From positions 2,542,001 through 2,606,000 of the forward strand of contig NC_012982.1 in the NCBI RefSeq assembly GCF_000023785.1: a DNA stretch of 64,000 nt, in the 5' to 3' direction. The notes below the pieces were generated by a model. It was not told where the DNA came from and made no database searches. It saw only the letters and a program-made list of their open reading frames with translations. Shown one piece after another: positions 30,086-34,147 of this stretch (position 1 is the first letter of the stretch; every line of letters begins with the position of its first letter). A program made the translations under genes and the position numbers. This DNA is from Hirschia baltica ATCC 49814. Lineage in GTDB: Bacteria; Pseudomonadota; Alphaproteobacteria; Caulobacterales; Hyphomonadaceae.

Positions 30086-30330
30086 ACAATATTCAGACGA
30101 CATTCCTACAAAAGCCGCTGTTTGTGACATTAATGTAATTTCTTGCGTACAACCCTGATTTAGGCACCGTAATTGCGAGTGTTACATGTTATTACATCAA
30201 TAGTTGGCTTTTACCTTAACGCTGCGTTGTCAGTTGCGAGGTAGAGGACTATTGCAATTGTGACCAACCAAACGCGAATGGGTTAGCCTATAAGCGAGTT
30301 ATAGTGGGACCTTTAAAGGGGAAAAAGCCT

Positions 30331-31854
30331 ATGCCAATGATGCCAAAAGCAAATATCGCAGCAAATACACTTGAATTTGAAACAACACCACTCGTGAAGC
30401 CTACAGGTTTTCGAGAATATGATGCGCGTTGGTGGTTCGGTATTGACGGTAATTCTAAAGCTCCTGAATTAAACTATTTAGGTGTACAGGCGCTAGGGCT
30501 TGGTTTGGGTACTGTCGTGCACCAAATGGGCGTGGAACCAAAAATCGTCGTTGGACATGACTACCGCTCTTACTCAATCGCAATCAAACAAGCACTTATT
30601 GTTGGCCTCATTGAAGCCGGCATGGAAGTCCACGACATCGGACTCGCACTATCCCCCACAGCTTATTATTCTCAATTTGCACTCGATATTCCTTGTGTCG
30701 CCATGGTAACCGCATCCCACAACGAAAATGGTTGGACTGGTGTCAAAATGGGTGCCAACAAACCGCTCACTTTTGGACCTGATGAAATGGGTCAACTTCG
30801 TGATGTCGTCCTCAATGGAAAGTTCGAGCCGCGTGATGGTGGTAAACTTATCCGCGTTGAAGGCATGCGCGAAAAATACATCGAGTCCGTGTCCGACAAA
30901 ATTGAAATCAAACGCCCTCTCAAAGTCATTGCAGCATGTGGTAATGGAACAGCCGGTGCATTCGCACCAGACGCCCTTCGCAATATGGGTGTTGAAGTTA
31001 TTGAACTTGATTGTGAACTTGATCACTCCTTCCCAAACTATAACGCCAACCCTGAAGATTCAGTCATGCTTGAAGCAATGGCTAAAGCGCTCAAAGAACA
31101 TGATGCTGATGTTGCGCTCGGCTTTGATGGTGATGGAGACCGTTGCGGTGTTGTCGACAATACAGGTGAAGAAATTTTCGCTGATAAAATCGGCCTAATG
31201 CTTTCGCGTGACCTTTCTAAAAACTATCCAAATGCAAAATTCGTGGTCGATGTAAAATCCACCGGTCTCTACAAAACTGATCCAGTTTTGAAAGAAAATG
31301 GTGCAACAGTAGACTATTACAAAACTGGCCACTCATACATTAAGCGTCGCACAACCGACCTTGATGCTCTCGCTGGATTTGAAAAATCAGGGCACTTCTT
31401 CTTCCGTCCACCACTTGGATATGGATATGATTGTGGTCTTGTGGCTGCTGCTGAAGTCTTGCGTATGTTGGACCGCAACCCAGATAAAACGATTGCACAG
31501 CTAAAAGACGAACTCGGCATTGCATACACATCTTTGACAATGGCAGCCCATTGTGACGATGAAATCAAATACGGTGTCGTCGATAAAGTTGTTGCAGCCT
31601 ATGAAACACTTGGAAAAGAAGGTGCATCAATTCTTGGACGTAAAATCGTTGAAGTGAACACAGTAAATGGTGCACGTGTAACTTTAGAAGATGGCTCATG
31701 GGTTTTGGTTCGCGCATCATCTAACAAGCCAGAATTGGTCGTCGTGGTTGAAAGCATGGTGTCAGACGAAGATATGCGTGCTCTTTTCCGTGAAGAAGTC
31801 AAACCTCGCTTGGCTGCTTTTGATGAAGTTGGTGCATACAACCAAGAAATCTAA
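30331..31854 (+). CDS. Phosphomannomutase/phosphoglucomutase
   Basis: An alpha-D-phosphohexomutase of 507 residues interconverting hexose 6- and 1-phosphates, supplying precursors of UDP-glucose and GDP-mannose. The ATG at 30331 follows AAGGGG by nine bases; the GTG at 30304 is less likely. The phosphoserine motif TASHNENG has Ser at 119, the metal loop is GFDGDGDR, the sugar-binding segment is FEKSGHFFFRPP, and the phosphate-binding RASSNKPEL loop is near the C terminus. It resembles ManB/AlgC-type bifunctional enzymes. A terminator follows. galU and glmS downstream fit a nucleotide-sugar cluster. Confidence 0.93.
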   Translation: MPMMPKANIAANTLEFETTPLVKPTGFREYDARWWFGIDGNSKAPELNYLGVQALGLGLGTVVHQMGVEPKIVVGHDYRSYSIAIKQALIVGLIEAGMEVHDIGLALSPTAYYSQFALDIPCVAMVTASHNENGWTGVKMGANKPLTFGPDEMGQLRDVVLNGKFEPRDGGKLIRVEGMREKYIESVSDKIEIKRPLKVIAACGNGTAGAFAPDALRNMGVEVIELDCELDHSFPNYNANPEDSVMLEAMAKALKEHDADVALGFDGDGDRCGVVDNTGEEIFADKIGLMLSRDLSKNYPNAKFVVDVKSTGLYKTDPVLKENGATVDYYKTGHSYIKRRTTDLDALAGFEKSGHFFFRPPLGYGYDCGLVAAAEVLRMLDRNPDKTIAQLKDELGIAYTSLTMAAHCDDEIKYGVVDKVVAAYETLGKEGASILGRKIVEVNTVNGARVTLEDGSWVLVRASSNKPELVVVVESMVSDEDMRALFREEVKPRLAAFDEVGAYNQEI

Positions 31855-31902: not shown

Positions 31903-31937
31903 AAAGGGCACTCTTTTGAGCGCCCTTTTTCTTTTTT
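31903..31937 (+). terminator. Rho-independent terminator after the mutase gene
   Basis: AAAGGGCACTC (31903-31913) pairs with GAGCGCCCTTT (31918-31928), one A-C mismatch, around TTTT, followed by TTCTTTTTT. It ends the mutase message before the RNA candidate downstream. Confidence 0.87.
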
Positions 31938-31994
31938 GGTGAATCATAAATTTACCTTGCTTGCTCATTGTTTGACCATTGTCCCGCCTTTTAC

Positions 31995-32169
31995 CTGCCG
32001 CAATTGGACTCCATTCTGAGTTTGTCGGCAGCAAAGGTAGTCACGCTGACGACATCAGTCCGGCGGCAAACCTCAACAGCCCCCAAGCCCCTTGCCGTCG
32101 GACACCAGATTCTCCCCGAGTCTATAAAGGCGTGGTGTTTCCCCCAAACACCGCGCCTTTTTCTCTTTG
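31995..32169 (+). ncRNA. Probable small RNA with C-rich loops, between the mutase gene and glmS
   Basis: This stretch has no convincing ORF but dense secondary structure: CTGCCG (31995-32000) with CGGCAG (32026-32031), containing ACTC/GAGT; a 12-bp stem GTCCGGCGGCAA (32058-32069) with TTGCCGTCGGAC (32092-32103), whose loop is rich in CCCCC and CCCC; GATTC (32108-32112) with GAGTC (32118-32122) around TCCCC; and a 15-bp terminator hairpin, 32126-32140 with 32146-32160, loop CCCCC, followed by TTTCTCTTT. It lies after the mutase terminator and 150 bases before glmS. The C-rich loops could pair with ribosome sites, as in C-rich-loop sRNAs of other Alphaproteobacteria. A glmS leader with an attenuator is the alternative. 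The 5' end is not defined. Confidence 0.65.
32126..32169 (+). terminator. Strong terminator closing the small RNA candidate
   Basis: AAAGGCGTGGTGTTT (32126-32140) and AAACACCGCGCCTTT (32146-32160) form a 15-bp stem with one G-U pair and a CCCCC loop, then TTCTCTTT. On the opposite strand no T run follows, so it acts on plus-strand transcripts. It lies about 150 bases upstream of glmS. Confidence 0.9.
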
Positions 32170-32320
32170 AGAACAAAACTCTTCACCTAAAGCATTGAAA
32201 TATATTGCATCATTATTTGCGAAATAATTAGCTTTTCTAATGTGTTTTTTTGGGTCATCTAGCAGTGGCGAGAAACGTGCATTACGGTAGACGATAAATT
32301 TTAGTAGAGGGCTTCAAATT

Positions 32321-34147
32321 ATGTGTGGGATAATTGGAATATTGGGGACTAAGCCGGCAGCTCCACGGATATTGGAGGCGTTGCGCAGACTTGAGTATCG
32401 TGGATACGATTCTGCAGGTATTGCCACATTGGATTCTGGCGAAATGTTCCGCGTGCGGGCACCCGGAAAGCTAAAAAATCTAGAAGCTGCCATGGAGTCT
32501 GTGAAAACACCTGGAAATGCAGGTATCGGACACACACGCTGGGCAACCCATGGCGCTCCTAACGAAAATAACGCCCACCCTCACACAGCTGGCCGTGTCG
32601 CAATTGTTCACAACGGAATTATTGAAAACTTTCGTGAACTTCGTGAAGAAGCTGAAGCGAAGGGATGTGAATTCAAAACGCAAACAGACTCCGAAACTAT
32701 CGCCCACCTCGTCGAAATTGAATTGGATGCCGGAAAGCCGCCTTTTGAAGCCGTCAAAACGACAATTGCAAAACTTCGCGGTGCTTTTGGTGTCGCGATC
32801 ATCATCAAAGGCGAAGAAGATCTTATGTTTGGGGCGAGAAAAGGATCTCCCCTTATTATTGGTGTTGGAAATGAAGAAACCTATCTAGGCTCTGATGCTT
32901 TTGCCGTCGCCCCCTTCACCGATAAAGTCATCTATCTGAAAGAGGGCGAATGGTGTGCTCTCACCCGTCACAGCATCAATGTTTTCAACGATGACGGCGA
33001 ACAAGTTGCTTATACGATTGATACAGTGCTTGGCGTTGCCGATGTTGTCGATAAAGGTCCCTATCGCCACTACATGCTCAAGGAAATTTTTGAGCAACCT
33101 GAATCAACAGCGCGTACAATTGGTGCCTATGTCAATGCAGTCGATCAAACAGCCCAATTACCCAATGAGCAGGAATTGGATTTTACCTCTTTTGATCGTG
33201 TCTACATTATTGCATGTGGTACAGCTTATTATGCCGGTTGCGTTGCTAAATACTGGTTTGAAAAATACGCAAAACTACCAGTAGAAACAGATATCGCCTC
33301 TGAATTCAGATACCGTGAACCCGCATTATCTAAAAATGCGCTTGCTATTTTTGTGACTCAATCAGGCGAAACAGCCGATACACTTGCTGCACTTCGCTAT
33401 TGTCAGGAAAATGGATTAACGACAGCAGCTGTGGTCAATGTCCCTACTTCTACAATAGCCCGTGAGTCAGATGCAATTCTTCCAACATTGGCCGGTGCAG
33501 AAGTTGGGGTCGCCTCAACAAAAGCTTTCACCGCGCAATTATGTTCCCTTGCCAGCTTAGCAGTGATCGCAGGACGTGCACGAGGTGTTCTTACCGAAAA
33601 AGACGAAACACACCTCACCGAACAACTCATGCAAATTCCAGGTCGCATAACAGAAGCCTTGAAGGTTGAAAATGCTGCCAAAGAACTCGCAGTCGATCTA
33701 TCCAAAGCGCGCGACGTTCTTTATCTGGGGCGTGGCACCATGTTCCCTATCGCAATGGAAGGTGCCCTCAAGCTTAAGGAAATTTCTTATATCCACGCCG
33801 AAGGTTATGCCGCAGGTGAGCTAAAACATGGCCCGATAGCTCTGATTGATGAAAACACACCTGTTGTTATGATCGCACCAACAGATCCATTGCTAGAAAA
33901 AACAATTTCCAACATGCAAGAAGTTGCAGCTCGCCATGGTAAAGTTTTGCTAATCACCGATGAAAATGGTGCAAAGGTTGGTGCAGATACACCTGCTTGG
34001 ACCCTCATAGCGCCTAGCTGTGATCCATTTATTGCACCCATTTTATATTCAGTGCCTATTCAGCTGCTAGCTTATTATGTAGCTGTGGAAAAAGGAACTG
34101 ATGTCGATCAACCTAGAAATCTAGCAAAATCCGTCACAGTTGAGTAA
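32321..34147 (+). CDS. glmS: Glutamine-fructose-6-phosphate aminotransferase (isomerizing)
   Basis: GlmS makes glucosamine 6-phosphate, the entry to peptidoglycan and lipid A amino sugars. The 608-residue length is normal. The N-terminal glutaminase starts MCGIIGI with Cys2 as nucleophile after Met removal, followed by RLEYRGYDSAGIA and GHTRWATHG. Two SIS isomerase domains follow: CGTAYYAG with FVTQSGETADTLAAL, and LGRGTMFPIAMEGALKLKE. The C terminus ends in DQPRNLAKSVTVE, the typical tail. GAGGG lies ten bases before the ATG. The upstream RNA candidate may regulate it. Confidence 0.98.
   Translation: MCGIIGILGTKPAAPRILEALRRLEYRGYDSAGIATLDSGEMFRVRAPGKLKNLEAAMESVKTPGNAGIGHTRWATHGAPNENNAHPHTAGRVAIVHNGIIENFRELREEAEAKGCEFKTQTDSETIAHLVEIELDAGKPPFEAVKTTIAKLRGAFGVAIIIKGEEDLMFGARKGSPLIIGVGNEETYLGSDAFAVAPFTDKVIYLKEGEWCALTRHSINVFNDDGEQVAYTIDTVLGVADVVDKGPYRHYMLKEIFEQPESTARTIGAYVNAVDQTAQLPNEQELDFTSFDRVYIIACGTAYYAGCVAKYWFEKYAKLPVETDIASEFRYREPALSKNALAIFVTQSGETADTLAALRYCQENGLTTAAVVNVPTSTIARESDAILPTLAGAEVGVASTKAFTAQLCSLASLAVIAGRARGVLTEKDETHLTEQLMQIPGRITEALKVENAAKELAVDLSKARDVLYLGRGTMFPIAMEGALKLKEISYIHAEGYAAGELKHGPIALIDENTPVVMIAPTDPLLEKTISNMQEVAARHGKVLLITDENGAKVGADTPAWTLIAPSCDPFIAPILYSVPIQLLAYYVAVEKGTDVDQPRNLAKSVTVE

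Follow-up and report, generated by a model that had tools for sequence, protein, structure and literature searches.

A structured small RNA with a C-rich loop upstream of glmS in Hirschia baltica: a probable genus-specific copy of an older alphaproteobacterial RNA

Introduction

Between a phosphomannomutase gene and glmS of Hirschia baltica ATCC 49814 lies an intergenic sequence rich in C-runs and hairpins. Does it encode a small RNA, and if so, is that RNA tied to glmS or does it belong to something wider? The window (the whole stretch of DNA analysed, 64,000 nucleotides of contig NC_012982.1) is part of a genome of 3.54 Mb. An initial annotation of the window had described an undescribed-looking sRNA with four C-rich hairpin loops, and had raised a role in amino-sugar control, analogous in placement to GlmY/GlmZ of Enterobacteria.

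Described sRNAs offer points of comparison. In Caulobacter crescentus, the C-rich loop of GsrN pairs with G-rich mRNA sites (PMC5869019) and the CCCC loop of CcnA pairs with GGGG in the ctrA and gcrA leaders (PMC8959179). BjrC174 (RF02355) is an abundant sRNA of Bradyrhizobium with a strong promoter (PMC4842269).

Results

The window was found to carry a structured non-coding RNA of about 145 nt with its own terminator (32019-32164, plus strand). For the region 31960-32200 the folding energy is -83.5 kcal/mol; shuffled sequences average -53.7 (z = -6.4), and none of 200 shuffles was as stable. The features of the locus are as follows.

30304-31854, plus strand: phosphoglucomutase/phosphomannomutase gene, the 5' neighbour (Pfam PGM_PMM I-IV)
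31903-31936, plus strand: mutase terminator, hairpin 31903-31928 with an 11-bp stem AAAGGGC.../...GCCCTTT, and T-run (sequence, scan)
31961-32018, plus strand: expected place of the sRNA promoter and 5' end (inferred; 69% identity with H. maritima)
32023-32054, plus strand: 5' hairpin TGTCG...CGACA (z = -0.8 alone; pairing kept in three genomes)
32058-32103, plus strand: main hairpin, 12-bp stem (32058-32069 / 32092-32103) and 22-nt loop (32070-32091) (z = -5.7)
32077-32091, plus strand: conserved loop motif CAGCCCCCAAGCCCC, probable pairing or binding site (comparison)
32107-32123, plus strand: small 6-bp hairpin with UCCCC loop (z = -4.5; conserved in H. maritima)
32126-32164, plus strand: intrinsic terminator of the sRNA, 15-bp stem, CCCCC loop and T-run (z = -6.8; compensatory changes in H. 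maritima)
32321-34147, plus strand: glmS, the 3' neighbour (SIS and glutamine amidotransferase domains)

It can be seen that the 12-bp stem with a CCCCC/CCCC loop, the UCCCC-loop hairpin and the CCCCC-loop terminator of the initial annotation are all present on the plus strand, and that the RNA does follow a separate mutase terminator. The loops are C-rich as claimed, but their number is not four: there are three such hairpins, one of which holds both CCCCC and CCCC in its loop. The absence of an ORF has to be qualified in the same way, as short nominal ORFs overlap the region; however, the three species of the genus have no conserved reading frame that begins at a common start, which fits a non-coding RNA. 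The TGTC...GACA pairing of the 5' hairpin is present in all three genomes, but this hairpin is unstable alone, so that the 5' boundary given here for the RNA is approximate. A strand call from G-U counts is biased by folding and was not relied on.

All three sampled genomes of the genus have this RNA upstream of glmS. In H. maritima it lies between the same two genes, mutase and glmS, and its main hairpin is 92% identical to that of H. baltica, the loop of this hairpin 95%, as compared with 42% for the upstream flank and 53% towards glmS; where the two terminators differ, the differences are compensating changes. In the third genome (G016) the gene upstream is a different one, and the main stem is entirely different in sequence yet still pairs, with the loop CAGCCCCCCAGCCCC retained. 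All three copies share the loop CAGCCCCC[A/C]AGCCCC and are followed by plus-strand terminators. Loss of the stems in relatives, with the DNA drifting freely, had been named at the outset as a result that would speak against an RNA; the stems proved to be kept or compensated while the flanking DNA drifts.

Is the loop found elsewhere in the genome? The exact pattern CAGCCCCCNAGCCCC occurs twice in H. baltica, in the window and at C1:83408, where it forms the 21-nt loop of a long hairpin (L125:1441-1560) flanked by genes for a Bax1 inhibitor and an ABC transporter. A profile built without the glmS copies likewise gave only two matches in the genome, at C1:83394 (27.6 bits) and at window position 32072 (15.0 bits). 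The two loops are 21-22 nt long and have 18 of 20 loop bases in common.

In 101 genomes of the family, the exact pattern was matched in 31, and its reversed control in none. Those matches that form hairpins are nearly all intergenic, next to a small gene encoded on the other strand, DUF2794 (Pfam). Twelve loci with exact matches (L133, L134, L135, L138, L139, L163, L164, L175, L176, L179, L184 and L185) were rejected as lying within genes or lacking a hairpin. A structured model (R1) had only 11 consensus pairs, MAFFT being unable to align the changing stems; therefore a sequence-only profile (R2) was made from 22 loops, with the glmS copies left out, and it matched 100 of the 101 family genomes at E <= 1, most of them at E < 0.001. 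Where the neighbours were read, the usual position is about 230-270 nt divergently upstream of DUF2794. Genera missed by the exact pattern have one extra C in the loop (ACCCATCAGCCCCCCCAGCCCC), 227-265 nt from DUF2794.

Outside the family, such loops were found beside DUF2794 in ten families (f2, f4, f7, f8, f13, f36, f51, f62, f80 and f107), and members of f3 and f39 have the loop at other places. Across the class, such a loop is missing from about half of the 30 best-matching DUF2794 loci that were examined; presence of the RNA across the class is thus broad, not universal. Plus-strand terminators also follow the RNA in one genus near DUF2794 and in members of f2 and f4. Standard base pairs are formed at 157 of the 180 positions in 30 distinct closing stems, as compared with 86 +/- 6.6 when partners are shuffled, and five to six pair types occur at each position. 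The first figure is inflated, since folding guided the choice of closing pair. Evidence for structure that does not depend on this choice comes from L213, a locus of f36, in which two tandem hairpins downstream of the DUF2794 match on the plus strand have unrelated stems and the identical loop ATCTGTAGCCCCCAAGCCCATT. In the genus g3 (L141-L146), conservation is strong over some 60 bp upstream of the hairpin (TTTAAT..AAAACACAAACTTGCCGCAAATCA.CCCCTTC), a block that could be the promoter, and a conserved plus-strand terminator lies about 60 nt downstream. Two copies about 1.2 kb apart were observed in one genome of genus g34 (G158, L170:1501 and 2684), and two on separate contigs in another (G162, L169 and L172), the latter with downstream CCCAC-loop hairpins and then T-rich sequence.

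How does the window RNA compare with this DUF2794-linked RNA? The latter has a loop of 20-26 nt with CAGCCCCC(C)(A/C)AGCCCC or a close variant, on a covarying stem, in a single imperfect hairpin of about 25-30 bp placed divergently upstream of DUF2794. The loop at 32070-32091 agrees with this, and so does the covariation of the stem around a fixed loop in the glmS copies of three genomes. The architecture and the place do not: in the window one long hairpin is replaced by a short 12-bp stem with extra hairpins, and the RNA stands upstream of glmS, the counterpart by locus being C1:83408. No match to the DUF2794 model was obtained in the H. baltica genome, including beside the C1:83408 copy. 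The window copy scores 15 bits with the profile, compared with 22-30 for main copies, and 15.1 bits (E = 0.24) with R1; given this low score, the link to the family rests on the loop, its length, and the window RNA being one of the two profile matches in the genome. Since the only other match is the ancestral-type C1:83408 locus, the window RNA is best read, from sequence comparison, as a genus-specific extra copy, with C1:83408 as the ancestral-type main copy. We conclude that it is probably a duplicate diverged in stem architecture, one that stands outside formal Rfam membership.

No Rfam model scored above its cut-off in the window or in any relative that was searched, so that at curated thresholds the window locus is indeed undescribed. 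BjrC80 (RF02354), MicX, sraA and tfoR all fell below the cut-off and were rejected as its identity. The match of BjrC80 to 32013-32164 is weak (31.1 bits; cut-off 80) and is driven by the terminator, whose C-rich loop is common to both; the loop motif is not shared. As a class-wide family BjrC80 was also set aside, with one sub-threshold match in 143 genomes.

The loop itself, in contrast, is that of a described sRNA, and to this extent the claim of novelty does not hold. The BjrC174 consensus (model of 201 nt) presents on the sense strand, on a long GC-rich stem, the hairpin loop UCAGCCCCCAGCCCC, which is nearly identical to the window loop ...CAACAGCCCCCAAGCCCC, one A being inserted in the window. 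The model as a whole gave no window match up to E = 10, short of the gathering score of 45 bits. The DUF2794-linked hairpin of L180 aligns with BjrC174 over its whole length at 30.8 bits, also below the cut-off of 45, and a sub-threshold match was obtained in the control genome of Caulobacter vibrioides. From these alignments, BjrC174 is probably the curated member of the wider DUF2794-linked family; it is the only curated relative found for the window RNA. Among the papers searched, none prints the loop motif and none links DUF2794 to an sRNA.

GsrN has in common with the window RNA its C-rich loop. Its gene is close to those of the general stress response and its promoter is of the sigma-EcfG type, whereas the motif GGAAC-N15-18-CGTT has no match in the window. 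CcnA, compared by description, is situated at the replication origin beside hemE, and the window RNA between the mutase gene and glmS.

Discussion

Taken together, these results make it probable that the window encodes an sRNA of about 145 nt that acts in trans: an additional copy, confined to the genus, of an ancient RNA of Alphaproteobacteria, with a C-rich loop that would pair with G-rich ribosome sites. The plus strand would be transcribed, as the terminators and the orientation of BjrC174 suggest. The almost invariant loop CAGCCCCC(C/A)AGCCCC, presented on a freely changing stem, may then serve, being single-stranded, as a seed for pairing with GGGGGCU-type ribosome-binding sites of several mRNAs, and such pairing might alter their translation or stability by analogy with GsrN and CcnA (PMC5869019, PMC8959179). 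Hairpin and terminator would protect the sRNA. Its position before glmS would be the landing site of the copy, not a sign of the target.

That the loop pairs with such ribosome sites is plausible by the same analogy, and candidate sites can be pointed to in H. baltica. A DUF937 gene (L271:1501-1513, G000:C1:335962) has GGGGGCTGTTATG at its start codon, with a predicted pairing energy of -26 kcal/mol and 10 consecutive bases perfectly complementary to both H. baltica loops. At ftsA (L272, G000:C1:433839) the G-rich ribosome site GGGGGGGCTTAATTATG is complementary to the loop sequence AGCCCCC, and the start of a HAMP-domain gene is a further candidate site. These three genes are leads, not results; G-rich sites resemble ordinary ribosome sites. 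A search for GGGGGCT near ATG gave 56 matches, as compared with 9 when the motif was reversed. Of 30 matches that were inspected, however, only about 3 lie at likely gene starts, and the surplus therefore cannot be taken as evidence for targets.

The main rival holds that a conserved RNA-binding protein binds the invariant loop, with the freely varying stem serving only to present it, and that the RNA acts as a sponge or scaffold for this protein. It comes first because seed pairing does not usually call for so constant a loop: 11 to 15 contiguous bases are invariant across many families, far beyond what a multi-target seed needs, and loop length is nearly fixed at 20-24 nt. Tandem copies with unrelated stems and identical loops (L213, L170) are also as in sponge RNAs. 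We know of no C-binding protein of such a kind in these bacteria, which counts against this rival. Known C-rich-loop sRNAs of the class, moreover, act by base pairing (PMC5869019, PMC8959179), and a protein site seems on balance unlikely. A related conjecture, which we rate slightly higher and still hold as tentative, is that CAGCCCCC(C/A)AGCCCC marks a class-wide core RNA, ancestrally with DUF2794, whose fixed loop meets one universal partner, protein or RNA, the Hirschia glmS copy being a duplicate.

Could the window RNA instead be an independent small RNA that came to a similar C-rich loop by convergence? The different stem architecture and the low profile score would fit such an origin. 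However, the 18 of 20 common bases include positions outside the C-runs (CAACAG...AG), the loops have the same length, and in each of two genus genomes the two copies are the only profile matches. Convergence therefore appears distinctly improbable, and the reading as a duplicate is kept.

It is more doubtful still that the RNA is a cis element or a dedicated regulator of glmS, a GlmY/GlmZ-like arrangement in placement. The position directly upstream of glmS is kept in all three genus genomes, even when the gene upstream is different, and the H. baltica glmS ribosome site GGGCTT complements AAGCCC of the loop. This match, though, is absent in H. maritima and G016, and the pairing is weak and not kept between species (-15.0, -11.9 and -11.4 kcal/mol). 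A strong terminator separates the RNA from glmS, and among 30 family and 80 named alphaproteobacterial glmS loci the loop is near glmS in this genus only. With GlmY/GlmZ the likeness lies only in the idea of a glmS-connected sRNA: there is no sequence or structure match, and no Rfam match to either in the window up to E = 10. As the loop is common to an RNA that normally stands beside DUF2794, not glmS, the glmS-specific role proposed at first is not supported. That the hairpins are non-functional DNA or repeats without transcription is hardly credible, given the conservation, the compensatory stem changes, the terminators and an expressed relative in Bradyrhizobium (BjrC174).

With the preferred reading, BjrC174, known from one family but without an assigned function, appears to be the one curated representative of an RNA that many alphaproteobacterial families possess. 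This regulator would be old and has hardly been studied; its loop barely changes, and its gene neighbour is conserved. This spread makes its function testable in tractable relatives such as C. vibrioides, with its below-cut-off BjrC174 match. The window copy offers a natural experiment, because the genus has two copies and the H. baltica genome no match to the DUF2794 model. As to where the glmS copy came from, at one locus outside the genus (L168, genome G119, genus g20) DUF2794 and the C-loop hairpin directly follow the C-terminal end of glmS; this is the only glmS neighbourhood noted outside the genus and may hint at the origin of that copy.
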